Of a stretch of DNA of 32,487 nt, positions 5,475 through 31,693 are shown one piece after another (within the stretch, counting starts at the first letter, position 1; every line of letters begins with the position of its first letter). Origin of the DNA: Bacteroidaceae bacterium (GTDB taxonomy: Bacteria; Bacteroidota; Bacteroidia; Bacteroidales; Bacteroidaceae); the NCBI GenBank assembly GCA_017483665.1, contig JAFUVM010000083.1, positions 1 to 32,487 of the forward strand. The letters are read 5' to 3'. The notes beneath the pieces were generated by a model that saw only the letters and a list, made by a program, of their open reading frames with translations, ran no database searches and was not told the origin of the DNA. The position numbers and the translations under genes were made by a program.

Positions 5475-7796
5475 ATGAGACGCAATACATTCCTTCTGCT
5501 TCTCCTGTCCTGCTGTTCCCTCGCATGGGCACAGCAACGTCCGGCGGGCGGAGCCACAGAGACCACGCCCTCGCGCTCGGAATACTTCTCGTGGATAAAC
5601 AACACCAACGAGGGTGCCACCGAGGAACAGACGCGTATCAACCTCGACTTCTTCCGGTGGTTGCACGACGCCTACGGCATGACGCTCGACATCTACGCTT
5701 TCGATGCCGGACAAATCGACGGCTCGCAGATGTACGGCAGCATGAAGAGCGACCGCTTCCGCCGGCAGTTCCCGCGAGGCTTCCAGCCCCTGAGCCAGCA
5801 AGCCGCAGCCATGAACACCAAGCTTGGCCTTTGGTGCGGTCCCGACGGCTTCGGCGACACGGAGCAGGAGGCGCAGGAGCGCGAAGAGATGATGGTGTCG
5901 CTGGTGCGCGACTACGGCTTCGGTCTCTTCAAGATGGATGCCGTCTGCGGACAGCTTCGCCCCGAGAAGTACGACAACTTCGACCGCATGATGACCCGCA
6001 TCCGCCAGTATTGTCCCGACTTTGTCCTGCTCAACCATCGCCTCGACCTCGGCCCCGGCACTCGCCACAGCACGACCTACCTGCTCGGCGGCGCTGAGAC
6101 CTATATCGACGTTCACATGGCTAATAATGTCACAGCCACGCATCATCGGGTAGGGGCCATGACCCGTAAGTCGCCCGAGGGACTGACGCGTCTGACCGAA
6201 GACCACGGCGTCTGCCTCAGCTCCTGCCTCGACTACTGGGAGGACGACCTCATCCTGCAGGCCTTCGGACGCGAGCTTATCCTTGCCCCCGAGCTTTATG
6301 CCAACCCCTGGCTGCTGCGCGACGACGAGTATCCGCGCTTGGCCTACATCTTCAACCTGCATCGTCTCTACCGCGACATCCTGCCCGTCGCCAAGCGTTT
6401 GCCCGAGGCACAGTACGGCCCCGAAGCCCTCACCCGCGGCAACGGCAGGACGCAGTTCCTCACGCTCCGCAACCTCTCGTGGCAGACGAAACGCTACCGC
6501 ATCCGCCTGGACGAGGAGACTGGACTCAGCAAGACGGGCAAACAGGTGCAGATGCGTCTTTATCATCCTTATATCCACGACCTTGGTCGACATCGCTACG
6601 GCGACGAAGTGGAGGTGGAGGTGCTGCCTTTCCGTAGTGCCTTGCTCAAGCTGACCACCGAACGCGAGCGCGACAAGACGCTGGTCAGCGGCATCCCGTA
6701 CTACATCATCAGCGAGGTGGGGACGCCCGAGGTACAGCTTCTCGGCGAACCCGGCGAGACGTATCAGGTCAGTATCAACGGCAAACGGCAGACCGTCTCC
6801 TTTCCCGGACAGAAGCGCACCGAGCCCTACCATCGCCAGCTGCCCGCCATGCAGTCCGTCGACGTGCCCGCCGACGCCGCTTCCCTTTACTTCGCCACGG
6901 CCTTTGCCGCCGACAACAACGCCCTCGAGGTGCGCGAGCTCCGGCGCTCCGGCCCTACGCAGATACCGCAAGTGCAGGCTGCCCGCGACGCCTTCTTCCG
7001 CCAATCGCTCTTCATCGAACGCGACATCTGGGACGCAGCCCTCTTCGACGGCGACCCCGCCACAGCCTTCAGCATCGCCCAGCGCTGGGGCGACCAGCGC
7101 GTGTCGAACTCCTCGGCCCTGCTCATCGACTTGGGCAGACCCATGCAGCTCGACGAGCTTTGCCTTGATTTCCAGAACGAATACGACCTCTCGCCCCTTC
7201 GTACAGCCGAAGGCATGACGGTGAGAGCCAGCTCCGACCTCGCCTCGTGGCGCTCCGTCGTGGCCCTTGCCGACAAACGGATGCGCATCGACATGCGCGG
7301 AATGGGAGCCGTCCGCTTCGTCAAGCTGCCCGTCTGCCCCCTGCGCATCAGCGAGATTTATGGCCTGAAGGACGGCAAACCTGTTGACCGCACAGGCTGG
7401 CGTGCCAACAACCTCTTCCGCGATTACAACAGAGCGGGCGCTACGGCTCGTCAAGCTTGGCAGAGCACCTTCACCCTCGGCACGATACCCCCGGGCTCGT
7501 ACCTCTGCATCGCCATCCCCGGCGAGTGCGGCAACGAAGGCGCCTGGGCGGCAGTCAAGGTGGACGGCCAGTACGTGGGCTGTCCAGACCGCGCCCCCTC
7601 CTTCATGTCCAACACGTGGGAGTGTCCCGTGCGGCGCACCTCGCACGACTACACCTACTATCTTCCCCTCACTCCCGACATGAGCGGCAAGACCATTCAG
7701 GCTTGGGCTCTGGCCTTCGGCACGCAGCAGCTCCAGCCCGAAGTCTGGGTGACAGCCTATCCCATCCCCTTCGAGACGAAGAACGTCAAGTACTGA
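5475..7796 (+). CDS. Secreted alpha-galactosidase-clan-like glycoside hydrolase
   Basis: A 773-residue exported protein with signal peptide MRRNTFLLLLLSCCSLAWAQ. Residues about 35-330 look like a TIM barrel of the GH-D clan (GH27/GH36-like). GLWCGPDGFGD resembles the GH36 strand before the active site, and FKMDAV places Asp155 where the clan has its nucleophile (K-x-D). Asp253 in SSCLDYWEDD is a candidate acid/base, which is inference. A beta-sandwich follows (about 340-410), and residues about 510-640 resemble an F5/8-type (CBM32-like) carbohydrate-binding module (SNSSALLIDLGRPMQL, RFVKLPV). A final beta domain contains the PGSYLCIAIPGE stretch. The substrate cannot be read from sequence. 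It follows the DPP IV gene by 37 bp and ends at a strong terminator. Confidence 0.7.
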   Translation: MRRNTFLLLLLSCCSLAWAQQRPAGGATETTPSRSEYFSWINNTNEGATEEQTRINLDFFRWLHDAYGMTLDIYAFDAGQIDGSQMYGSMKSDRFRRQFPRGFQPLSQQAAAMNTKLGLWCGPDGFGDTEQEAQEREEMMVSLVRDYGFGLFKMDAVCGQLRPEKYDNFDRMMTRIRQYCPDFVLLNHRLDLGPGTRHSTTYLLGGAETYIDVHMANNVTATHHRVGAMTRKSPEGLTRLTEDHGVCLSSCLDYWEDDLILQAFGRELILAPELYANPWLLRDDEYPRLAYIFNLHRLYRDILPVAKRLPEAQYGPEALTRGNGRTQFLTLRNLSWQTKRYRIRLDEETGLSKTGKQVQMRLYHPYIHDLGRHRYGDEVEVEVLPFRSALLKLTTERERDKTLVSGIPYYIISEVGTPEVQLLGEPGETYQVSINGKRQTVSFPGQKRTEPYHRQLPAMQSVDVPADAASLYFATAFAADNNALEVRELRRSGPTQIPQVQAARDAFFRQSLFIERDIWDAALFDGDPATAFSIAQRWGDQRVSNSSALLIDLGRPMQLDELCLDFQNEYDLSPLRTAEGMTVRASSDLASWRSVVALADKRMRIDMRGMGAVRFVKLPVCPLRISEIYGLKDGKPVDRTGWRANNLFRDYNRAGATARQAWQSTFTLGTIPPGSYLCIAIPGECGNEGAWAAVKVDGQYVGCPDRAPSFMSNTWECPVRRTSHDYTYYLPLTPDMSGKTIQAWALAFGTQQLQPEVWVTAYPIPFETKNVKY

Positions 7797-9713: not shown

Positions 9714-11372
9714 TTAAGACTGCTCGGACGCGTCTTTGTCTCCGTTCTTGAACCATCGCATATAGAGGGGCCGCATCCGCGAGAGCAGCTCGATGCCGTA
9801 GACCGGCCAGAGCGGCATGCGGCGGGCACCCGTGCGGACGGCCGGTATGTCGAGCAGCAGGAAGAGCATCGTCATCAGGCCGCTTGCCCAGATTACAATG
9901 CCGTAGATTTGCTTCAGCGCAACGGACATCATGGAATGCAGGTAGTAGGAGCCCATGAACTCGCCCATGTCGAAGCGGCTCATGTCAAGGTGGGACAGGG
10001 TCAGCTGGCTGCCGTAACGCGAGATGTCGTCGTTGAGGAAATGCGAGAAGAGCGTTGTGTAGATGCCGTAACCCGCTGCTCCGGCCAGGTACATGTGGAA
10101 GATGTTGAAGACGAAGAGCCCCATGAAGAACTGTTCGAGGTCCGGGATGCTCTCGTCCAGCGACCACATGAGCGTGGCGGCAAGTATGGCGTAGGCTGCT
10201 CCGCGAAGCATGATGGCAGGTCGCCACACCTCGAGGGGAGCGTTCACGTCGAGCATCAGATACATGATAATGGCGTAGGCCGTGATGCATCCGAAGCCGA
10301 TTCCCAGCAGCTTCCACACCTTCCATTTCATCACCTTCAGCCAGAGCAAATCGATGGCGACGCCCACGTAAACGCCCGGCAAGGCCCAGAGAAACTGCTT
10401 TTCCTTCGTCAGCTCCTCCAGTCCGACGACTTCCTCGTACCAAATCTCCTCCAACGTATGTTCGCAGCCCAGCAGGAGTTCGCCGATGGCAGTCACGACG
10501 AGGATGGGCAGGACGTTACGGTAGGTGAACAGCTTGAGCGAGACGTATGGATTGCTGACGTGCGAAAGTCGGTGCATGATGAGTGCCGCGAGCATCAGCG
10601 ACACGCCGAGCAGCAGCCTGAGGCCAGGGCTGTCCATCCACATCCGGTAGTCGCCATATACCATAATATATGACACCATGAGCATGAGCAGGCTGATGAG
10701 CAGGCCGCTCAGGAAGTCGATGCCTTTGAGAGGCAAGCGCCCAGGCATGGGGCAGAACGGGCGGCACAGGCATAGTTGCGTAAGCAAGATGAACGACATC
10801 GTGCCTACCGTGAAGATGTGCATCATTTGCCACGTGAAATGATGGGCAAACCATGCGGCCAGGAAGCCGCTGCCTTCGATGGCTGTCAGCAGGACGATAT
10901 GCAGCACGGGGAAGAAGACGGCAAAATCGCGGCGCGGCGTTATCCAGAGTTGGATGTTCGACATGCACTCGAACGTGCCTTGTATCTTCGCCATGCCAGC
11001 CACGAAACACACGACCAGCAGGACGGGCATCGACTGGCAATGCATCGTGATGAGGTTGCAGACGGCAATGGTGATGGCTGCTCCGCAAAGCAGTTGCTGG
11101 TTGGTGAAGCGGAACTTCATGCGGAAGAGCATCGGGAAGTAGATAGCCATGCCAGCCAGTCCTGCATAGAGCAGCATCAGTAGGTCCTCTATCATGAAGT
11201 TCGTGGTGCCGCGGATGCTGTCCAGCGCTCCCAGATACATGCCGCTGGTGAACTGCACGCACAGCACAGTCGCGACGTATATCCAGGGTTGGATGCGCTT
11301 GGGCACCCAAGGCCGGAACATGGGCATCATGAAGCCCATGCCCGCAGGTGGGGGAGGAGGGAGGGGCAGCAT
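9714..11372 (-). CDS. DHA2-type MFS efflux transporter (EmrB-like)
   Basis: A 552-residue inner-membrane protein and the third gene of a tolC-emrA-emrB-type operon. It has about 14 hydrophobic segments, as in the DHA2/EmrB branch of the major facilitator superfamily, and it starts 1 bp after the membrane-fusion gene. Its partners imply proton-driven export of a hydrophobic compound across both membranes, but the substrate is not readable. The N-terminus is odd: residues 2-9 are LPLPPPPP, encoded by a run of C-rich codons. The ATG at 11336 (MGFMMPMF) would skip this. I kept the upstream start because of the tight coupling to the preceding gene. The sequence is quite divergent from E. coli EmrB. 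Confidence 0.85.
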   Translation of the reverse strand: MLPLPPPPPAGMGFMMPMFRPWVPKRIQPWIYVATVLCVQFTSGMYLGALDSIRGTTNFMIEDLLMLLYAGLAGMAIYFPMLFRMKFRFTNQQLLCGAAITIAVCNLITMHCQSMPVLLVVCFVAGMAKIQGTFECMSNIQLWITPRRDFAVFFPVLHIVLLTAIEGSGFLAAWFAHHFTWQMMHIFTVGTMSFILLTQLCLCRPFCPMPGRLPLKGIDFLSGLLISLLMLMVSYIMVYGDYRMWMDSPGLRLLLGVSLMLAALIMHRLSHVSNPYVSLKLFTYRNVLPILVVTAIGELLLGCEHTLEEIWYEEVVGLEELTKEKQFLWALPGVYVGVAIDLLWLKVMKWKVWKLLGIGFGCITAYAIIMYLMLDVNAPLEVWRPAIMLRGAAYAILAATLMWSLDESIPDLEQFFMGLFVFNIFHMYLAGAAGYGIYTTLFSHFLNDDISRYGSQLTLSHLDMSRFDMGEFMGSYYLHSMMSVALKQIYGIVIWASGLMTMLFLLLDIPAVRTGARRMPLWPVYGIELLSRMRPLYMRWFKNGDKDASEQS

Positions 11373-14970: not shown

Positions 14971-16422
14971 ATGGCAACGTCAATTAAAGAACTTGATCCT
15001 CAGATTATCTGGAAGAATTTCTACCTTCTCACACAAGTGCCGCGCCCGAGCGGTCACCTCGAAAAGATTCAGCAGTTCCTGCTCGAATGGGCAAAGGAGC
15101 ACGGCATCGAAGCCTTCAAGGACGATGCGGAGAACATCGTGATGCGCAAGCCTGCCACGCCCGGACGCGAAAGCGCGAAGTGCGCCGTCCTGCAGGCCCA
15201 CATGGACATGGTGCCGCAGAAGGTGGACGAGAGCACCCATAACTTCGAGACCGACCCCATCGAGACCTACATCGACGGCGACTGGGTGAAGGCCAAGGGA
15301 ACCACCCTCGGCAGCGACGACGGCATGGGTGTGGCTGCCATCATGGCGGTTATGGAGAGCAAGGACATCAAGCACGGACCGCTGGAGGCCCTCATCACGG
15401 CTGACGAAGAGACCTGCATGTACGGCGTCAACCACCTTTCGGCCGATACGCTGAAGGGCGACATCCTCTTGAACATCGACAACGAGACGATGGGCGAGTT
15501 CGTCATCGGCTCGGCCGGCGGCGTCAACATCAATGCTTCGATGAAGTACAAGGAAGTTGCTCCCGAGGAAGGAGACGTTGCCGTGAAGGTGATGCTCCGT
15601 GGGCTCCGTGGCGGTCACAGCGGTTTGGAAATCAACGAAGGCCGTGCCAATGCCAACAAACTGATGGCCCGCTTCGTGCGCCAGGCCACTATCGACGACG
15701 AGGCACGCCTCTGCTCCTGGCAGGGCGGCAACATGCGCAACGCCATTCCGCGTACGGCAACCGTGGTGCTCTCTATACCGAAGGAGAACTACGACGACCT
15801 GTGCGAGCTGGCCGGGTACTGCGAGCAGGTGTTCAAGGACGAGTTCCGCGGCGTGGAAGAAGGCATTTCGCTGACGGTGGAGCCGACCGCGATGCCTGCC
15901 GGACAGGTGCCCGGGGAGATACAGGACAACCTGATAGATGCGCTGATGGCCTGCCACGACGGCGTGCTGAGGAACATTCCGAGCATCCCCAGCGTCGTGG
16001 AGACGAGCTCCAACCTGGGCATCGTCACCATCGGAGAAGGCGAGGCCAGCATCCTCATCCTGGCGCGTTCGTCGGGCGAGACCATGATGGAATACATCCA
16101 GGAGATGCAGGAGAGCTGCTTCTCGATGGCTGGCATGAAGGTAGAATACGGCGGCCAGTACGGCGCTTGGCAACCGAACTTCGACAGCCCCATCACGGCC
16201 AAGATGGTGGAGGTGCATCGTCGTCTCTTCGGCGAGGAAGCCAAGGTGCAGGTCTGCCACGCAGGTCTGGAGTGCAGCATCATCGGCGGAGTCTATCCCA
16301 AGATGGACCTCGTGAGCTTCGGTCCCACGTTGCGCAGCCCGCACACGCCCGACGAGCGTTGCAACATCCCCAGCGTTGCGAAGTTCTGGGAGTTCCTCAA
16401 GGCGCTTCTCGAAGAGATCTGA
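14971..16422 (+). CDS. pepD: Aminoacyl-histidine dipeptidase (PepD, M20 metallopeptidase)
   Basis: A 483-residue cytoplasmic dipeptidase of broad specificity (peptidase D, carnosinase-type). The dizinc site can be read in order: His77 in LQAHMDMV with catalytic Asp79, bridging Asp116 in GSDDGMG, catalytic Glu146 and zinc ligand Glu147 in TADEET, Asp170 in NIDNE, and His458 in RSPHTPDE. All match the spacing of the family. The lid domain lies between about 190 and 380. The likely role is the last step of peptide use, complementing the exported DPP IV at 3.2 kb. Its own promoter lies upstream; a palindromic element follows the stop codon, and the large fusion gene begins 68 bp later, so cotranscription is possible. 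Confidence 0.95.
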   Translation: MATSIKELDPQIIWKNFYLLTQVPRPSGHLEKIQQFLLEWAKEHGIEAFKDDAENIVMRKPATPGRESAKCAVLQAHMDMVPQKVDESTHNFETDPIETYIDGDWVKAKGTTLGSDDGMGVAAIMAVMESKDIKHGPLEALITADEETCMYGVNHLSADTLKGDILLNIDNETMGEFVIGSAGGVNINASMKYKEVAPEEGDVAVKVMLRGLRGGHSGLEINEGRANANKLMARFVRQATIDDEARLCSWQGGNMRNAIPRTATVVLSIPKENYDDLCELAGYCEQVFKDEFRGVEEGISLTVEPTAMPAGQVPGEIQDNLIDALMACHDGVLRNIPSIPSVVETSSNLGIVTIGEGEASILILARSSGETMMEYIQEMQESCFSMAGMKVEYGGQYGAWQPNFDSPITAKMVEVHRRLFGEEAKVQVCHAGLECSIIGGVYPKMDLVSFGPTLRSPHTPDERCNIPSVAKFWEFLKALLEEI

Positions 16423-16490: not shown

Positions 16491-19400
16491 ATGAGAAATC
16501 TCCTCGCTTTCCTTCTTGCCCTGTGCTTCGGACTCGGCTGTCTTGCCGGCAAGAACGACGCTGTCGTAGTGGCTTACGTCACGTCGTGGACTAAGGTGAT
16601 GCCCGACCCGACGGTGATGACGCACATCAACTATGCGTTCGGTCACGTCAACGACCAGTTCAATGGAGTCCGCATCGACAACGAGCAACGGCTCCGCGAC
16701 ATTGTCGCCCTGAAGAAGCGGCAGCCACGGCTGCGTGTCATGCTTAGCATAGGAGGGTGGGGCAGCGGCCGCTTCAGCGAGATGGCGGCTTCCGACGAGA
16801 ACCGCACGGCCTTTGCCCGCGACTGCCGCCGCCTTTGCGACGAGCTGGGACTGGACGGCATCGACATCGACTGGGAATACCCCACGCAGAAGAGTGCCGG
16901 CATCAGTGCCTCGCCGCAGGACACCGAGAACTTCACCCTCCTGATGTGCGACCTCCGGAAGGCCTTGGGCAGCAGGCTCTGGCTCACCTTGGCAAGCGTC
17001 GGCAGCGCACAGTACATCGACTTCCGCAGCTGCCAGCAGTACCTCGATATGGTCAACGTCATGGCCTACGACATGGGTAATGCCCCCAAGCACCACTCGG
17101 CCCTCTTCCGCTCGGAAATCGTCGGATGGCTCAGCGCGTCGGATGCCGTGGAGGCTCATCGCAAGGCCGGTGTGCCCGACGAGAAGATTGTCCTGGGCAT
17201 GCCCTTCTACGGAAGAGGCAAGAGCGGCGTGTATATGAAGTATCGCGACCGCGACAAGCACACAGAGACAGAGGTGTGGAGCAACACATCGAAGGCACCC
17301 TTCCTCAAAGATGAGAACGGCGAGTTGGTCATCGGCTTTGAGAGTCCGAGGTCGATTGCAGCGAAGTGCGCCTACATCAAGGAGCAAGGCTTGCGAGGCG
17401 CAATGTATTGGGAATATGCCGACGACAACGAACAGGGCGACCTGCAAAGAGCCGTCTGGCAAGGCGTGCTGCAAAGCGACAAAGATAGGAGTTCGGCATG
17501 TCAGAAGGCAGCCAAGCGATTAACTGCTGTTCTCGCTGAGAATCAGAAGCGGGAGGACATCACGCCAGACAGCTTCTTCTACGACTGGCGGCAGCTCAAG
17601 GCAGAGATGCTCGCTGAGAAAGACCCGACGGCTCAGGCTATCTACCGCGCTGCAATGGCTCACATGCTTTGCCAAAACCGATGGCGTTCGCAAGGCTACG
17701 GACGCAAGACCTCAAGCCACCCCGACAGCATACAGGAGTGGAGCATTAAGGAATACAATGACTATGCCATCAAACTCTATGCCCAGGCTATGCAAGACCC
17801 TGATGCCTTGCACCGTTGCAAAGTGGCAAACATAAAACCTTTGGCTGTGCCAGGCAAGGACGACGTCATCTTCGACGGCGACCTGCTCTATCTCATCTGG
17901 CAGACTTTCAAGGATGATTGCTCTGCAAGGGGGAGGGGTCTCTACCTGCATTACACGGACATCATAGACGTTTACCGCAGGCACGGACAGAGAGAGGCGG
18001 CATTGCTGCTACGCATCGATTCGCTCGAAGAAAAAGGTGGGCAGGATAAAGAAGAACTTCTTTTGAGGCTTCGCGACGAATACGCCGACCTGGATGCCTG
18101 TGCCGACGTCTATATGTTGCTCGCTGGCCTTCCTGACAAGACGAACCGGGAGAAGCAGGACCTCCTGGAAGCGGCTTTGCGGCGTTATCCCAAGAGTCGG
18201 CAGGCAGACGAGCTGAGGAACAGAATCGCCGACCTGCGGCGTCCGAGCCTATCGGCAAGGTTCAATCAGATGTATTACCCTGACAGGAACTACGACATCC
18301 CGCTCAAGATAAAGAATATGCAAACGGGCAGTCTCGCCGTGTACCGTTTGCCGAAGGACTTCGAGTTCAGCGACGACGAAAAGGACGGTACGAGGCCCGA
18401 GCAGGTCCGCCGTGCGGGGACGCTCGTCGAGACGCTGTCCATCCCGATGGAAGGCGTGGAGGCTCTCGAGACGAAGAACGACACCTTGAAGTGGCACTCT
18501 CCTGGTTTCGGGTGCTACGCCTTTGTCCTCGACGGCACGACGCAGGAGAAGACCGACGGTCATGAACCCTATGTTCACCAGTTCTCCGTGTCGGCCCTCA
18601 CCTTCATGTCCGTTGCTTTGCCCGAAGGAATAGAGCGCGTGATGGTGACAGACGCGATGAGCGGCGAGCCGCAGCAGGGCGTCAAGGTCAACTTCTACAA
18701 GAGAGACGGCCGCAACTACGCTTTGCTCGGGGAGAAAACGACTGATGCCCGTGGCATAGCAGAGCTGCCCTATGACGGGAAGAGAAACTATCTGTACGTC
18801 GAACTGTCGCGCGGCGAGGACAATATGCACGAGAAGGAAAGCGTCGGATGGCGTTATTCGCGGGAAGGCGACGACAAGCTCTCGCACCATCTCAACATTT
18901 ATACCGACCGCAGCATCTACCGTCCGGGACAGACCGTCTACGTGGGCGGCTTCGCTTACACACAGAGTCACGACCAGGCGCCGCAAGCCGAGGCAGGCAG
19001 GGAACTTACCCTCACGCTCCAGGATGCCAATGGCGAGGAGGTCTTGACACACACGCTGAAGACCGACGAGTTTGGCTCCTTGCAGGACAGCCTGCTGTTG
19101 TCCGAATCGGGATTGCCCGGTCATTACAGCCTTCGCGTCGGCGACAGTTGGCACGGCTTCCGCGTCGAGGAGTATCGCCGTCCGACCTTCGAGGTCAAGA
19201 TGGACGCGTCGCCAGCCGTCTCGCTACCCGTCGACAGCATCACCTTGACGGGTCGTGCACTGACCTACAGCCAGTGGCCGGTGGCCGGAGCATGCGTCAC
19301 GGGAACCTATCAGTGGCAGCAGAGCTGGTGGTACAAGCGTTTCGCTCCGAGCGAGCAACACAGCATCGACACCCTCTACACCGATGAGGAGGGGCGGTTC

Positions 19401-22400
19401 AGCATTACCGTTCCCGTCTCGAAGGAACTGAATGAGGAGCAGTTGCGCTGGGGGCAGACGCTCAGGCTCAACGTCGATGTGCTCAGCACGGAAGGCGAGA
19501 CGCAGCAAGGCAGCACGCATCTGACGCTTTGCAGCACGCCGCTGCGCATGAGGGGCCACGTGCCGGAGCAGCAATGTCGCGAGAAGTTGCAGCCGTGGCG
19601 CATTGACCTCTATTCGAGCAACGACAAGCCGCTGGAGGGCGACGTGCTTTGCATGCTCACGCAGGACGGCCGGGATGTGAAGAACTTCTTCGTTCCGGCA
19701 GGCAAGGACACCATTCCCGACGTGCTCCGTAGCCTGCCCTCCGGCCATTATGAACTCAAGGCGAAAGCCGACGTCAAGGGCGACACGGCTTCGTACAAAG
19801 CAAGCTTCACCATTTTCTCTATCATGGATAAGCGTCTGCAGGGCCGTCACGACCTGTGGCTCTACACGCCCAGCGATGTGATGTCGGCAGAGAAACCGGC
19901 CCGCTTCCAGGTGGGCACGGCCCTCCCCGAAGCTTGGATATACTGCATCCTGACGGGCGAGAACGGCATCGTCCGCGACACAATCCTGCATCTCTCGGGC
20001 GAGGCAACCCTGCTCGAAGTGCCTTACGAAGAGCGGTTCCGCCATCATCTGGGTGTCTCGCTGCTGCTCATGCACGAAGGCGAACTGCGTCAACAATCGG
20101 CAGACTTCAAGCTCGAAGAACCCGACACGAAGCTCACGATGCGCTGGGACACCTTCCGCGACTACCTGCAACCTGGGCAGAAGGAGACGTGGCGGCTCAC
20201 CTTGACGCGTCCCGACGGCAGTCCTGCCTCCGCCAACGTCATGGTCGGCATGTACGACGCCTCGCTCGATGCGTTGACTTCCTACAATATGTCGGCCAAT
20301 ATCTACCGTGGTTGCGGCCGCAACGTGACGCTTTTCGCAAGCTACCTTTGGAGCTTCAAGGATATGCACACAGCTTGGCTGAATATGCCGCCACGTTATC
20401 TGCCCGTCGAGGGCTACGACTTCGCGAGGTGGAACGAAGAGTTGTTCCAGGGCGGAAGGCCTATGACGAGAAGCGTCAGGGTGCGCGGCGTAGGAGCAAA
20501 CAGGTGGGAGGATAGAGTCTTCGAAATGGTGGAACCTCCGTTGGTGGCAAAGGCTGCCGCCGTGGAGACTATGGCTTTCGCGTCTGTCGACCAGGAAGCT
20601 CTGAATGGCAAGATAGCCGGGCTCGACATCGTGGAGAGTGCGGATGACTTGGGCGACAGCGCGATGCGTCTGCGCGGCTTGGGCACGCCGGAGGAACCAG
20701 AGGAAGAGGAGGAGGCACTGGACGAGACATACGTCCGTTCCAATCTCTCCGAGCTCGCCTTCTTCTACCCGCAATTAAGGACTGACAGCAAGGGGCAGAC
20801 ATCCATCGAGTTCACGCTTCCCGAGGGCCTCACCTCGTGGCACCTGCACGGCCTTGCACATACCAAGGACATGATGACTGCCGAGTGGCAGGAAACGGTT
20901 GTGGCGAAGAAGGAGCTGATGGCAGAGCTGACGTTGCCGCGCTTCCTGCGCAGCGGCGACGAAGTGAGTCTGACGGCCAGCATCCGCAACGCCTCCGAGA
21001 CGAGGCAGCGGGGCGAGGCTGTCTTGGAGGTCCGCGATGCGGAAAGTAACAAAGTGTTGAAGAAGATGAAAGTCAGCTTCGACCTTGAGCCAGGCAAGGA
21101 GGCAGTCCACCAGATGCCCTTCAAGGCAACAATCGACCATCCCATGCTTGCCGTGCAATGGGTTGCGAAGGCAAAGGGCAGCAGCGACGGCGAAGTGCGC
21201 TATCTGCCTGTGCTCTCCGACATGCAGAACGTCACCGAGACCCGGACATACCTGCTCAAAGGCGATACGACACTCACGCTGGACCTCTCCAGTCTCTTCG
21301 GGAGCAAGGAGCAGGGAGCAAGGAACAAGACCCTGACCATCGAGCATGTGGCCGAGCCCATCTACCTTGCTTTGCAGGCTCTGCCCTCCCTGACGGCACC
21401 GACACGCAACGACGTCCTTTCCGTCGCCTCGGCCTATTATGGCGGCAGTGTCGCTTACCATCTTGCCCACAAGTATGATTTGCGACCCGTCATCGAGCGT
21501 TGGGCGAAGGAAGAGGACTCGCAGGCTTTGGAGAGTCCGCTCGCGAAGAACCAGCAGTTGGCAGACATCCTGCTGGGCGAGACCCCGTGGATGATGGAGG
21601 CACAGCAGCAGAAAGCCAGCCGTCATCGCCTCGTTTCGCTCTTCGACGAAATGGAGCAGGAGCAGCGCCGCATGACGATGCTCGCCGCCCTCTCTGCCCG
21701 TCAGCACGACGACGGCTCGTTCGGCTGGTTCCCGGGCATGAGCGGCAGCGTCTGGATGACCAGCGAGGTTGCCACGCTTCTTGTGCGCCTTGGTGCCATC
21801 AGGGACGATGTGTTGTCCGTCCCCGAACGTCAGATTCTCGACAAAGCCATGTCGTTCCTCGCGAAGGAAATGCACGAAGACGTGGAGGCGCTCAGGAAGG
21901 AGAAGAACCCCACTTTGTCGTTCTCCCAGCTCCGCTACCTATATATATATATAATGTGTAAAGAAAAGACCCTCACAACCTCCCCCGGGGGAGAGGAGAC
22001 AACGCGGTATCTCCTGTCGCTACTGAAAAAACAGGCAGGTGCTTCCTTCCCCCTTTGGGAGGACAGGGAGGGGCTTGAGCTTCGTGCCCTGGCTGCCATC
22101 GTACTGAAGAAAGCAGGCGAGGAGAAGAAGGCACAGGCCCTGATGCCTCGCATCCACGAGCAGCTCCGCCACAACGACGGTGCCTACCTGGCCTATCCCG
22201 GCGGCTCGTTTACAAGCATCGACCGCAAGGTGGAGACGCATGTCAACCTGATGGAAGCCGTGCAGACCGTCGAGCCCAAGGAAACCGACCTGCTTGCGAG
22301 GATGGCTGAATGGCTTATCCAGCAGAAGCGGACGCAGGAGTGGGAGCAGCCTGTGCAGTCGGCGGATGCGGTTTATGCGTTATTGCAGACCCCCCAACCC

Positions 22401-23021
22401 GCTTTACAGGGAGCAACGTCCAAGTGGAATGGTGAGATTACATTCGACAATAAAAAGCTTCTCCTAAAGGGAAATGATGGTGAACCTTGCGTCCGTGAGC
22501 GCATAGAACTTCCTCAGCAGGGAACAGGAAATGCCGTCAAGCTCCGCATCGAGCAGCAAGGCGGCGACAGAAACGTGGCTTGGGGCTCCGTCATCACGCA
22601 ATATCAACTGCCAGCCGTTGAGGTGGAGAGCCATCGCGAAGGTATGACCATCCGCCGCGAACTCCCTTCCTCCTCGGGGGAAGGGTTGGGGAAGGGGGCT
22701 GTCCACGTCCGCTATACCATCACGGCCGACCGCGACTACGAATACGTTTGCCTGCGGGCTCCGCGTCCTGCGGCAGCAGAACCCGCACGGCAGCTCTCGG
22801 GCTACCGTTGGCAGAACGGCTTAGGCTTCTACCAGGCCATGCACGACGCCAGCACGGAGTACTTCATGGACCGCCTGCCACGCGGCACCTATGTCATCGA
22901 AGAGGACTGGCTCATGAGCAGCGACGGCACTTTCCTCCTGCCGCCAGCACGTCTGACGTGCCTCTACGCACCCGAGTTCCAGTCGCAGACCTCTGGCACA
23001 AGGCTCGGCGTAGCACCTTGA
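16491..23021 (+). CDS. GH18 chitinase-like domain fused to alpha-2-macroglobulin
   Basis: A 2176-residue exported protein in one unbroken frame. The N-terminus is a signal peptide ending near GLGCLAGK; Cys17 gives only a poor lipobox. Residues about 25-320 are a GH18 domain with all hallmarks: LSIGGWG near 86, DGIDIDWEYP at 122-131 with catalytic Glu129, and MAYD near 192. A helical linker (about 330-560) leads into a Bacteroidota-type alpha-2-macroglobulin: MG2 domain near 800-830 (YRPGQTVYVGGF), a SusC-plug-like stretch at about 1368-1398, a thioester-domain toroid near 1630-1900 (DDGSFGWFPG) and a C-terminal receptor-binding-like domain (LPRGTYVIEEDW). The thioester motif CGEQ/CLEQ is absent. 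The GH18 substrate may be chitin, peptidoglycan or N-glycans and is undetermined. Five GC-rich palindromes and a (TA)7 tract lie in frame. Confidence 0.85.
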   Translation: MRNLLAFLLALCFGLGCLAGKNDAVVVAYVTSWTKVMPDPTVMTHINYAFGHVNDQFNGVRIDNEQRLRDIVALKKRQPRLRVMLSIGGWGSGRFSEMAASDENRTAFARDCRRLCDELGLDGIDIDWEYPTQKSAGISASPQDTENFTLLMCDLRKALGSRLWLTLASVGSAQYIDFRSCQQYLDMVNVMAYDMGNAPKHHSALFRSEIVGWLSASDAVEAHRKAGVPDEKIVLGMPFYGRGKSGVYMKYRDRDKHTETEVWSNTSKAPFLKDENGELVIGFESPRSIAAKCAYIKEQGLRGAMYWEYADDNEQGDLQRAVWQGVLQSDKDRSSACQKAAKRLTAVLAENQKREDITPDSFFYDWRQLKAEMLAEKDPTAQAIYRAAMAHMLCQNRWRSQGYGRKTSSHPDSIQEWSIKEYNDYAIKLYAQAMQDPDALHRCKVANIKPLAVPGKDDVIFDGDLLYLIWQTFKDDCSARGRGLYLHYTDIIDVYRRHGQREAALLLRIDSLEEKGGQDKEELLLRLRDEYADLDACADVYMLLAGLPDKTNREKQDLLEAALRRYPKSRQADELRNRIADLRRPSLSARFNQMYYPDRNYDIPLKIKNMQTGSLAVYRLPKDFEFSDDEKDGTRPEQVRRAGTLVETLSIPMEGVEALETKNDTLKWHSPGFGCYAFVLDGTTQEKTDGHEPYVHQFSVSALTFMSVALPEGIERVMVTDAMSGEPQQGVKVNFYKRDGRNYALLGEKTTDARGIAELPYDGKRNYLYVELSRGEDNMHEKESVGWRYSREGDDKLSHHLNIYTDRSIYRPGQTVYVGGFAYTQSHDQAPQAEAGRELTLTLQDANGEEVLTHTLKTDEFGSLQDSLLLSESGLPGHYSLRVGDSWHGFRVEEYRRPTFEVKMDASPAVSLPVDSITLTGRALTYSQWPVAGACVTGTYQWQQSWWYKRFAPSEQHSIDTLYTDEEGRFSITVPVSKELNEEQLRWGQTLRLNVDVLSTEGETQQGSTHLTLCSTPLRMRGHVPEQQCREKLQPWRIDLYSSNDKPLEGDVLCMLTQDGRDVKNFFVPAGKDTIPDVLRSLPSGHYELKAKADVKGDTASYKASFTIFSIMDKRLQGRHDLWLYTPSDVMSAEKPARFQVGTALPEAWIYCILTGENGIVRDTILHLSGEATLLEVPYEERFRHHLGVSLLLMHEGELRQQSADFKLEEPDTKLTMRWDTFRDYLQPGQKETWRLTLTRPDGSPASANVMVGMYDASLDALTSYNMSANIYRGCGRNVTLFASYLWSFKDMHTAWLNMPPRYLPVEGYDFARWNEELFQGGRPMTRSVRVRGVGANRWEDRVFEMVEPPLVAKAAAVETMAFASVDQEALNGKIAGLDIVESADDLGDSAMRLRGLGTPEEPEEEEEALDETYVRSNLSELAFFYPQLRTDSKGQTSIEFTLPEGLTSWHLHGLAHTKDMMTAEWQETVVAKKELMAELTLPRFLRSGDEVSLTASIRNASETRQRGEAVLEVRDAESNKVLKKMKVSFDLEPGKEAVHQMPFKATIDHPMLAVQWVAKAKGSSDGEVRYLPVLSDMQNVTETRTYLLKGDTTLTLDLSSLFGSKEQGARNKTLTIEHVAEPIYLALQALPSLTAPTRNDVLSVASAYYGGSVAYHLAHKYDLRPVIERWAKEEDSQALESPLAKNQQLADILLGETPWMMEAQQQKASRHRLVSLFDEMEQEQRRMTMLAALSARQHDDGSFGWFPGMSGSVWMTSEVATLLVRLGAIRDDVLSVPERQILDKAMSFLAKEMHEDVEALRKEKNPTLSFSQLRYLYIYIMCKEKTLTTSPGGEETTRYLLSLLKKQAGASFPLWEDREGLELRALAAIVLKKAGEEKKAQALMPRIHEQLRHNDGAYLAYPGGSFTSIDRKVETHVNLMEAVQTVEPKETDLLARMAEWLIQQKRTQEWEQPVQSADAVYALLQTPQPALQGATSKWNGEITFDNKKLLLKGNDGEPCVRERIELPQQGTGNAVKLRIEQQGGDRNVAWGSVITQYQLPAVEVESHREGMTIRRELPSSSGEGLGKGAVHVRYTITADRDYEYVCLRAPRPAAAEPARQLSGYRWQNGLGFYQAMHDASTEYFMDRLPRGTYVIEEDWLMSSDGTFLLPPARLTCLYAPEFQSQTSGTRLGVAP
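17927..17940 (+). repeat. GC-rich element half-copy inside the fusion gene (R3)
   Basis: AAGGGGGAGGGGTC matches the G-rich right end of the element family and encodes about residues 479-484 (within SARGRGLYL). It is only a half-copy, so assignment is tentative. Confidence 0.4.
21940..21953. repeat. (TA)7 tract inside the fusion gene
   Basis: Seven TA dinucleotides in a GC-rich coding stretch, encoding the YIYIYI-like residues near 1817-1821. Loss or gain of one repeat would shift the frame and remove the last ~350 residues. Confidence 0.8.
21980..21993. repeat. Perfect palindrome inside the fusion gene (R4)
   Basis: CTCCCCCGGGGGAG is a perfect 14-bp palindrome, followed by AGGAG. It is read in frame as the SPGGEE part of the protein near residue 1832. 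Confidence 0.75.
22042..22079 (+). repeat. GC-rich element inside the fusion gene (R5)
   Basis: A C-run (TTCCCCC), loop TTT, G-run (GGGAGG), then ACAGGGAGGGGCTTGAG. It has the family's layout and is read in frame as FPLWEDREGLELR, near residues 1851-1863. Confidence 0.65.
22388..22413 (-). repeat. GC-rich element inside the fusion gene (R6, reverse)
   Basis: Its reverse complement starts CTCCCTGTAAAGCGGGTT and ends GGGGGGTC, closely resembling the copy at 8203-8229. It is read in frame as QTPQPALQGA, near residues 1966-1975. Confidence 0.75.
22662..22701 (+). repeat. GC-rich element inside the fusion gene (R7)
   Basis: CTTCCTCCTCGGGGGAAGG followed by GTTGGGGAAGGGGGC. It is read in frame as PSSSGEGLGKGA, near residues 2057-2070, between two conserved beta strands. 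Confidence 0.75.
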
Positions 23022-30630: not shown

Positions 30631-30669
30631 TTGTCGTCCAAAGATTTAGCAGGATTTGAGGAATAATCG

Positions 30670-30677
30670 TAATTTTG
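30670..30677 (+). promoter_or_regulatory. -7 box for the rhuM-fic gene
   Basis: TAATTTTGC matches TAnnTTTG and lies 17 bp before the ATG at 30695. The -33 element is poor. The box rules out the TTG at 30656 as the start. Confidence 0.6.
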
Positions 30678-30694
30678 CAAAAAGATTAAGAGCT

Positions 30695-31693
30695 ATGGAG
30701 GAGAATAAGATAATAATCTATCAGACAGAGGACGGACAGACGCAGGTTGACGTCCGGCTGGAAAATGAGACTGTATGGCTTACGCAAGCTCAGATGGCTG
30801 AACTGTTTCAGAAGGATAGAACGGTAATAACACGTCACATTAACAATGTGTTTAAAGAAGGAGAATTGGAGAAAGAAGAGGTATGTGCAAAATATGCACA
30901 CACCACTCGACATGGAGCTTTGGCTGGTAGAACACAAATTCAGGAAACTGTTCTATACAACCTTGATGTTATCATTTCTGTCGGCTATCGCGTGAAGAGC
31001 AAGCGTGGTACTGTCTTCCGCATATGGGCCAACAAGATTCTGAAAGACTACCTCATCAAGGGTTATGCCGTCAACGAGCGCATACGAAAGGGGCAGATAG
31101 GCGAACTGCGTCAGCTGGTTGGAATGCTTGGGCGTGCCGTACAGAGTCAGCCTCTGCTCTCCACCGACGAAACGAATGCTCTCTTCGAAGTAGTAACGGA
31201 CTACACCTACGCTCTCGACACGCTCGACAACTACGACTACGAGCGACTGACCATCGAAAAGACTACGAAGGAAGAACCCTTCCACGCCACCTACGAGAAT
31301 GCGATGGAAGAGATTCGTCGCCTTCGCGAGAAGTTTGGCGGCTCCGTCTTGTTCGGCAACGAGAAGGACGACTCTTTCAAGAGCAGCATCGGACAGATCT
31401 ATCAGACCTTCGGCGGCGAGGAACTCTATCCCAGCGTAGAGGAGAAAGCCGCCATGCTCTTGTATCTCGTCACCAAGAACCACTCCTTCAGCGACGGAAA
31501 CAAACGTATCGCTGCCACGCTGTTCCTCTGGTTCCTCAACAACAACGGCATCCTCTACCGCAAAGACGGCTCAAAACGTCTCGCCGACAACACCCTTGTC
31601 GCCCTGACCCTGATGATTGCCGAGAGCAAGACGGAAGAAAAAGACGTGATGGTAAAGGTCGTGGTGAACCTGATTAACCAGAGGAATGCCTAA
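30695..31693 (+). CDS. RhuM-family protein with C-terminal Fic/Doc domain
   Basis: A 332-residue protein. The N-terminal ~150 residues match the virulence-RhuM family (VWLTQAQMAELFQKDRTVITRHI, a DNA-binding-like helix-turn-helix, then TVLYNLDVIISVGYRVKSKRG). The C-terminal part contains a Doc-like Fic motif, HSFSDGNKR at 263-271, with the catalytic His263. Fic proteins transfer AMP or phosphate to target proteins; the target here is unknown. No separate antitoxin is adjacent, so a self-regulating toxin or a defence protein is a guess. The 5' part is AT-richer than the exonuclease, and the gene is bounded on both sides by copies of the exonuclease 3' end, which suggests arrival by transfer. 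Confidence 0.88.
   Translation: MEENKIIIYQTEDGQTQVDVRLENETVWLTQAQMAELFQKDRTVITRHINNVFKEGELEKEEVCAKYAHTTRHGALAGRTQIQETVLYNLDVIISVGYRVKSKRGTVFRIWANKILKDYLIKGYAVNERIRKGQIGELRQLVGMLGRAVQSQPLLSTDETNALFEVVTDYTYALDTLDNYDYERLTIEKTTKEEPFHATYENAMEEIRRLREKFGGSVLFGNEKDDSFKSSIGQIYQTFGGEELYPSVEEKAAMLLYLVTKNHSFSDGNKRIAATLFLWFLNNNGILYRKDGSKRLADNTLVALTLMIAESKTEEKDVMVKVVVNLINQRNA

Follow-up and report, generated by a model that had tools for sequence, protein, structure and literature searches.

A GH18 chitinase-type domain joined in one frame to a thioester-less alpha-2-macroglobulin in a genus of Bacteroidaceae

Gene structure and genomic setting

The window, i.e. the whole stretch of 32,487 nucleotides that was analyzed, is contig C18 of a metagenome-assembled genome (G000, 78% complete). 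Positions 16491-23021 of its forward strand form a single open frame, with an ATG at 16491 and a stop at 23021, encoding 2176 amino acids. The GH18, MG2, A2M, and bMG10 domains of this protein all scored above Pfam cut-offs, while bMG3 and TED gave weak matches only. Membership of the alpha-2-macroglobulin (A2M) family follows from the MG2, A2M, and bMG10 profiles, the last of which closes the A2M half. The features of the gene and its upstream neighbor are as follows.

14971..16422, + strand: M20 dipeptidase (beta-Ala-His dipeptidase / PepD type), TIGR01893 E 7.5e-161
16491..23021, + strand: whole GH18-A2M gene (signal peptide, GH18, helical domain, A2M), 2176 aa
16491..16550, + strand: signal peptide, residues about 1-20, signal-peptidase-I-like, without a conserved lipobox Cys (by eye, alignment of 26 fused loci)
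16566..17426, + strand: GH18 domain, residues 26-312, Pfam E 1.4e-61
16854..16883, + strand: GH18 catalytic motif DGIDIDWEYP, residues 122-131, invariant in 26/26 fused loci
17439..18236, + strand: helical domain (about 317-582), forming the N-terminal portion of the resident A2M (AF2 model, mean pLDDT 78.9)
18897..19151, + strand: MG2 domain, residues 803-887, PF01835 E 7.7e-17
20463..20735, + strand: hypervariable presumed bait, residues 1325-1415, inferred from its variability and its place directly before PF00207
20556..20684, + strand: degraded TonB-plug-like segment within the presumed bait, residues 1356-1398, two-plug HMM i-E 3.7e-7
20760..21017, + strand: A2M domain PF00207, residues 1424-1509, E 3.9e-17
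21411..21422, + strand: thioester position, DVLS at residues 1641-1644 (alignment A3, gap-free around the site)
22698..22976, + strand: bMG10 C-terminal domain, residues 2070-2162, PF17973 E 8.4e-23

An earlier note on this DNA had proposed that one unbroken frame joins a GH18 domain with every catalytic residue to a complete alpha-2-macroglobulin. The single 2176-aa frame, the Pfam matches to GH18 (residues 26-312), MG2, A2M, and bMG10, and a junction spanned in 24/139 genomes of the genus bear out the fusion, and the catalytic residues, including Glu129 in DGIDIDWEYP at 122-131, are present as claimed. The word complete was too strong for the A2M half, in which MG2, A2M, and bMG10 exceed their cut-offs but the thioester motif is missing. 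Residues 320-560, described there as a linker, form a helical domain in the AF2 model, and unfused A2Ms of the genus have the same domain directly after the signal peptide.

By eye, a single signal peptide is seen, ahead of the GH18 part, so the fusion would be exported as a unit, as had been suggested. Lipoprotein anchoring was rejected, as no Cys is conserved at the end of the signal in the 26 fused loci (by eye), and NCBIfam families gave no sorting-domain match on the fusion protein. Given a leader of the signal-peptidase-I type and the lack of both a lipobox (by eye) and a sorting-domain match, the protein most likely resides in the periplasm.

The fused gene is flanked by the M20 dipeptidase gene, a small ORF, LplA, and glycine cleavage genes; judged on these flanking genes, it does not lie in a six-gene mag operon. 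A PBP1c-like gene was not found among 20 window frames scanned. The M20 dipeptidase gene lies upstream, within 4 kb of the A2M gene, in 17/17 fused and 19/20 unfused genus loci (the exception being L109), and its product is probably cytosolic, with no signal peptide by eye. Elsewhere in the window, positions 30656-31693 hold one frame with a RhuM-type region and a Fic/DOC domain, and two proteins have no Pfam or NCBIfam match at E 0.001, i.e. a 773-aa protein (5475-7796) that appears exported by eye and a 552-aa protein (9714-11372) that appears to be a membrane protein by eye.

Genuineness and distribution of the fusion

A query across the junction (residues 251-433) was spanned in one frame by 24/139 genus genomes, one of which (G020) had three such contigs. 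The contig scan yielded 32 loci, 25 of them (L032-L047 and L049-L057) with GH18 and A2M together; these and the window locus (L001) make up the 26 fused loci that were aligned. The fused loci come from assemblies labelled Bacteroidaceae, Prevotellaceae or Bacteroidales, and the host, where named, is a ruminant. The fusion is confirmed as real and conserved. The earlier note had asked that an assembly join be excluded, and an assembly or annotation artefact is virtually impossible. The 78% completeness of the window's genome might point to one, as might a fused locus (L055, whose gene is also listed as L106) in which the frame breaks in two about 600 residues in; the 26 fused loci from many separate assemblies and the 24/139 genus genomes that span the junction refute it.

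Outside the genus, the fusion was found neither among 399 family-sampled genomes (six fused, all of the genus, G000 included) nor among 395 phylum-sampled genomes (G000 only), in searches able to detect this GH18 type only. A plasmid collection gave no match. Because many of the genus genomes are incomplete, failure to find a gene in them says little about its absence. No report of a GH18-A2M fusion was found among the literature matches listed, the coverage of which misses most subscription journals, consistent with the previous statement that no such protein had been described. Both halves belong to known families; joining them appears to be new.

Downstream of the fused gene, the loci differ in detail. 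In one genome the GH18-A2M frame reads on without a break into a protein of GDSL-hydrolase and laminin-G-like type (L037:14529-16298), for 2798 aa in total, perhaps because a deletion fused two genes or because of an assembly join. A relative lies downstream in 15/16 other full fused loci of the contig scan, the exception being L033, which ends soon, and the relative in G000 is on contig C147. In L053 the fused locus is followed by two small exported-looking proteins (L053:15347-16039 and L053:16082-16723), cohesin- or sorting-tail-like by eye, one of which has a weak dockerin match (E 0.005).

The GH18 half

The GH18 profile scored 209.3 bits against a cut-off of 29.6. The DxxDxDxE motif of the family is present as DGIDIDWE, with the catalytic Glu129, in 26/26 fused loci, and Asp122, Asp125, Asp127, Glu129, and Trp307 are identical across all 26 aligned. 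Further GH18 motifs in the window protein are SIGGW (86-90), MAYD (191-194), and MYWEYADD (305-312). The TIM-barrel fold expected of GH18 was found in the window domain, and the closest solved fold to the window protein was the GH18 domain of CotE (best VIA match), in a fold search with rows covering almost the GH18 alone. Motifs and predicted fold suggest that this half is active on chitin-type oligosaccharides. GH18 enzymes usually cleave GlcNAc-GlcNAc bonds and, with some exceptions, not ordinary peptidoglycan.

Among eleven fused genomes searched for GH18 copies, the fused copy was the only one found in seven (all incomplete), a second full copy was present in three, and G000 holds a broken GH18 fragment elsewhere, together with a single A2M. 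Free GH18s of the same type are approximately 45-65% identical; those scanned (n=6) either stand alone or have ThuA, a lactonase propeller or DUF5121 as fusion partner. GH18-ThuA occurs in L074 and L078, GH18-lactonase in L079, and GH18-DUF5121 in L114, while a ThuA gene lies downstream in L058 and L059; ThuA proteins are thus frequent company of this GH18 type, which has several C-terminal partners.

The A2M half

In alignment A3, gap-free at the thioester site, DVLS of the window protein (1641-1644) lies opposite the CxEQ of 9/16 other-family A2Ms. CxEQ was absent from 24/24 genus rows and from 7/16 other-family rows, and the full thioester trap that the earlier description implied is not borne out in the genus. 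Judging from the aligned rows, the absence of the thioester is older than the fusion. By its absent CxEQ, the A2M half is classed as a putative type II A2M and not as type I, which carries the thioester.

The profile of alignment A3 matches the solved A2Ms 5a42, 4rtd, and 4u48 around the A2M domain. Residues 1325-1415, directly before this domain, are hypervariable. In E. coli A2M, disordered bait residues are given as Arg923-Leu942 in passages of PMC4498604; the stretch of solved A2M that aligns with the window A2M domain runs from chain positions 954-971 onward, shortly after these residues, in numbering that is not reconciled. The model of the A2M half had a mean pLDDT of 36.7, and bait and TED were therefore assigned from the alignment alone.

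Origin and evolution of the fusion

The 25 fused GH18 domains formed one clade with support of 99/98 in a tree from which duplicates and two near-copies were left out; this tree singled out no free GH18 as the nearest one, or donor. In the A2M tree, a quick tree without a mixture model and without partial and duplicate loci, the genus side (46 rows) grouped the 18 fused rows into a single clade that also takes in two unfused rows, L104 (G176) and L110 (G138). Fused and unfused states must change three times on this tree, the simplest account being one gain and two losses. The closest unfused A2Ms have a signal peptide and then directly the sequence that is found after GH18 in the fused ones, suggesting that the A2M is the resident gene and that the GH18 arrived between its signal peptide and mature start. 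A single event that set the GH18, in frame, behind the signal peptide of a resident A2M and ahead of its mature N-terminus is well supported by these sequence comparisons.

Trees, synteny, and unfused relatives suggest that the GH18 was lost again about twice within the fused clade. The earlier note had considered that close relatives might always encode two separate genes. For the A2M locus this was rejected, since unfused relatives carry the A2M alone at the same place, with G176 and G138 inside the fused clade. No GH18 was found in G138, and G176 has two other GH18s, one of them under the cut-off, in frames of 1176 and 878 aa; both genomes are incomplete. Loss of the GH18 with retention of the A2M in two lineages suggests that the halves are not strictly interdependent. 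Median dN/dS (NG86, 24 fused loci with L055 left out, 264/276 pairs usable) was 0.11 for GH18 and 0.14 for A2M, and by this measure both halves are under purifying selection since the fusion. The A2M half of the fused loci is 64-86% identical to that of the window.

A plug-like segment in the presumed bait

The likeness of the presumed bait to a receptor plug is the more surprising part of the locus, though it is only faint in the window's own bait. An HMM built from two SusC plugs of G000, that of the core SusC among them (of six SusC frames, four were dropped for failing the motif), matched 26/93 non-redundant A2M frames at a full-sequence E of 1e-3, while reversed-frame controls gave 0/118. 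Of the fused A2Ms long enough to include the bait, 17/22 matched and five did not; six of 28 fused rows stop before the bait and were not counted. The figure becomes 15/20 without L010 and L048, A2M pieces at contig starts that were counted as fused, the same bins holding the GH18 part on another contig. Among unfused A2Ms of the genus 7/28 matched, and among A2Ms from elsewhere 2/37.

Four 106-aa bait peptides, chosen for a visible plug motif, all matched TIGR04056 (SusC) at E 5.4e-10 to 1.1e-7, in partial matches far under the family cut-off, and matched Pfam Plug at E 1.7e-4 to 1.9e-3, also under the cut-off. The window's own 91-aa bait peptide gave E 0.066 with TIGR04056 and no match with Pfam Plug. 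In a whole-length NCBIfam scan of 40 A2M rows, SusC was matched at E 0.01 in one row only (best 3.4e-6). Clear plug-like bait segments lie at L034:11976-12293, L053:7945-8262, and L064:6807-7124.

The similarity is to one receptor, the core SusC encoded on contig C8 of G000, and covers the first half of its plug. Twelve chosen baits gave scores of 91-260 with this SusC and none above 82 with eight further SusC-like frames from G000. A plug match to the core SusC at 61% identity or above was found in 113/139 genus genomes, and 138 have some match, paralogues included. Across the 22 genomes with both the A2M and the SusC gene, the bait was identical to the genome's own SusC at 37/40 positions in G054, 52/62 in G056, 35/37 in G143, and 32/37 in G114; in five genomes 40-43 of 55-61 positions agreed, in G176 29/41, and matches were weak in G000 and five others and trivial in six. 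The window bait is identical to its own core SusC plug at 24/43 positions, and this plug ranks 21st of 22 SusCs for the window bait; the window's plug copy is a degraded remnant.

In the ten best bait/SusC pairs dN was 0.03-0.25 and dS 0.53 or more, saturated in four; low dN with diverged dS speaks for protein-level selection over fresh copying, in what is a rough comparison of a short segment. General gene conversion of the bait from the SusC of the same genome is not supported, the own SusC ranking first (with ties) in only three of 22 pairs, G054, G056, and G143, which are among those with a real match (four trivial matches also rank first). In G054, nucleotide identity of 89% over 40 codons and a dS of 0.53, the least of the ten, make a fairly recent copy possible. 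A plug match to core SusC better than 4e-23 was not found in 7/24 fused genomes (G005, G020, G027, G128, G129, G131, and G149; all incomplete), and the A2Ms of G027 (L039) and G129 (L033) nonetheless have a clear plug segment.

The core SusC lies next to fasciclin-domain proteins, SusD, and a second SusC, and no CAZyme was found among seven frames scanned beside it. On contig C8 of G000 (L215:926-4468 and L215:8194-10491), where it lies beside fasciclin-domain proteins, a gene for an M6 (immune inhibitor A type) metallopeptidase is found upstream; by eye only, this gene was not seen at the equivalent place in G056. In two A2Ms from other Bacteroidota classes, L175 and L177, a whole TonB plug is seen by eye directly before the A2M domain, and L175 has a CSEQ thioester; plugs may thus occur more widely in the baits of A2Ms from Bacteroidota. 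Database entries of Bacteroidota A2Ms with a plug in the bait presumably exist as well; nothing on a plug-like A2M bait was found among the literature matches listed.

Proposed function and alternatives

Our preferred reading, to which we give a probability of roughly 0.4, is that the protein is an exported, likely periplasmic, chitinase-type enzyme mounted on a non-covalent protease trap, with a bait that imitates a plug in many members. Architecture and single origin are well supported, and joint function is the weak step. The protein would be soluble in the periplasm, where the GH18 half may cut chitin-type GlcNAc oligosaccharides. By analogy with MagD, the A2M half would be a type II non-covalent trap, in which cleavage of the flexible bait ahead of the A2M domain leads to capture of the cleaving protease. 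In many members the presumed bait would imitate the opening portion of the plug in a core TonB receptor of the SusC type, and the trap may thus be set for proteases attacking such receptors. The fusion would bring glycan enzyme and trap to one place and in one dose. Against a link with proteases, the free relatives of this GH18, which are joined to or beside ThuA proteins, give no hint of one.

It is possible, if doubtful, that the protein is an opportunistic carrier, the chitinase domain having moved onto a stable exported protein on which the halves act independently and have no joint function. The varied partners of the free relatives (ThuA, lactonase propeller, DUF5121) are consistent with a partner-changing domain, the GH18 was lost without loss of the A2M in G176 and G138, and 7/11 fused genomes searched yielded no GH18 besides the fused copy. 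However, the fusion was kept in 24/139 genus genomes while the A2M half diverged to 64-86% identity with the window.

An unlikely explanation is that the GH18 half mainly binds GlcNAc polymers (peptidoglycan, chitin, mucin) and so keeps the A2M trap near them, as might be suggested by its nearest solved fold, the GH18 domain of CotE, which is reported to bind and degrade mucin (PMC5853579). The earlier note had suggested, as conjecture, such an anchor on chitin, N-glycan or peptidoglycan, or else a protective role for a glycan-degrading site against host proteases. A mere tether could lose catalysis, however, whereas the catalytic residues are invariant in 26/26 fused loci and dN/dS is 0.11; furthermore, CotE is a spore coat protein while the window protein looks periplasmic.

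We regard as quite improbable a more specific role as guard of a receptor, in which selection would maintain the bait as a decoy, at protein level, of the core SusC plug, attacking proteases would be trapped, and the GH18 would handle GlcNAc glycans of the attacker or of a food particle. Against such a decoy, 7/24 fused genomes have no core SusC match, including the two with a clear plug segment; five fused A2Ms that include the bait gave no plug match, and the window's own copy is degraded. If true, this would be a bacterial trap with a natural target readable from its bait; to our knowledge, the targets of bacterial A2Ms, above all of thioester-less ones, are largely unknown.

Very unlikely is a defense of the envelope against other bacteria, in which the A2M half, like MagD, would protect against injected peptidoglycan-targeting effectors and the GH18 would act on released glycan. 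MagD, like the window A2M, is without a thioester; the flanking genes show no mag operon, however, and the general preference of GH18 for GlcNAc-GlcNAc bonds over ordinary peptidoglycan argues against such a role. MagD gives resistance to some T6SS peptidoglycan-targeting effectors, but not against every such effector or attacker, according to passages of PMC12663445.

The presence of an apparently active glycan hydrolase on the A2M chain and, in many relatives, of a presumed bait that looks like a receptor raises concrete questions: which glycan, and which protease. The genus offers natural contrasts, with members that are fused, unfused or have lost the GH18 again, baits with or without a plug, and genomes in which a core SusC was found or not.

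Comparison with known systems

Type II bacterial A2Ms, which include MagD and E. coli YfaS, resemble the A2M half in the absence of CxEQ; the bait position that they have would correspond to the hypervariable stretch of the window protein. They differ in that the window protein has no adjoining mag operon, carries GH18 and a helical domain at its N-terminus, and belongs to a group in which the presumed bait is plug-like in many members. MagD of Pseudomonas aeruginosa is described in PMC5764988 as trapping protease non-covalently, without a thioester. With type I A2Ms (E. coli YfhM/ECAM and Salmonella A2M) the window protein has the MG2, A2M, and bMG10 regions in common, but it is without a thioester and (by eye) without a lipobox, and the 20 window frames hold no PBP1c-like gene.

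GH18 chitinases of the ChiD, CotE, and ChiW kind share fold and catalytic motifs with the window GH18, which differs in being joined to an A2M and reached 152 bits with the NCBIfam ChiD family against a cut-off of 750. CotE of Clostridioides difficile is a peroxiredoxin-chitinase with a reported role in mucin binding and degradation (PMC5853579), located in the spore coat (PMC7278498). Its GH18 is joined to a non-glycan domain, as in the window protein, but the partner is a peroxiredoxin and the location the spore coat. The GH18-ThuA, GH18-lactonase, and GH18-DUF5121 proteins of the same genus and family have the same N-terminal GH18 type, approximately 45-65% identical, with a C-terminal partner that is not an A2M. 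Finally, the Bacteroidota A2Ms L175 and L177 carry plug sequence at the same position as the presumed bait, where it is whole by eye, whereas members of the genus have the first half only, close to one core SusC.
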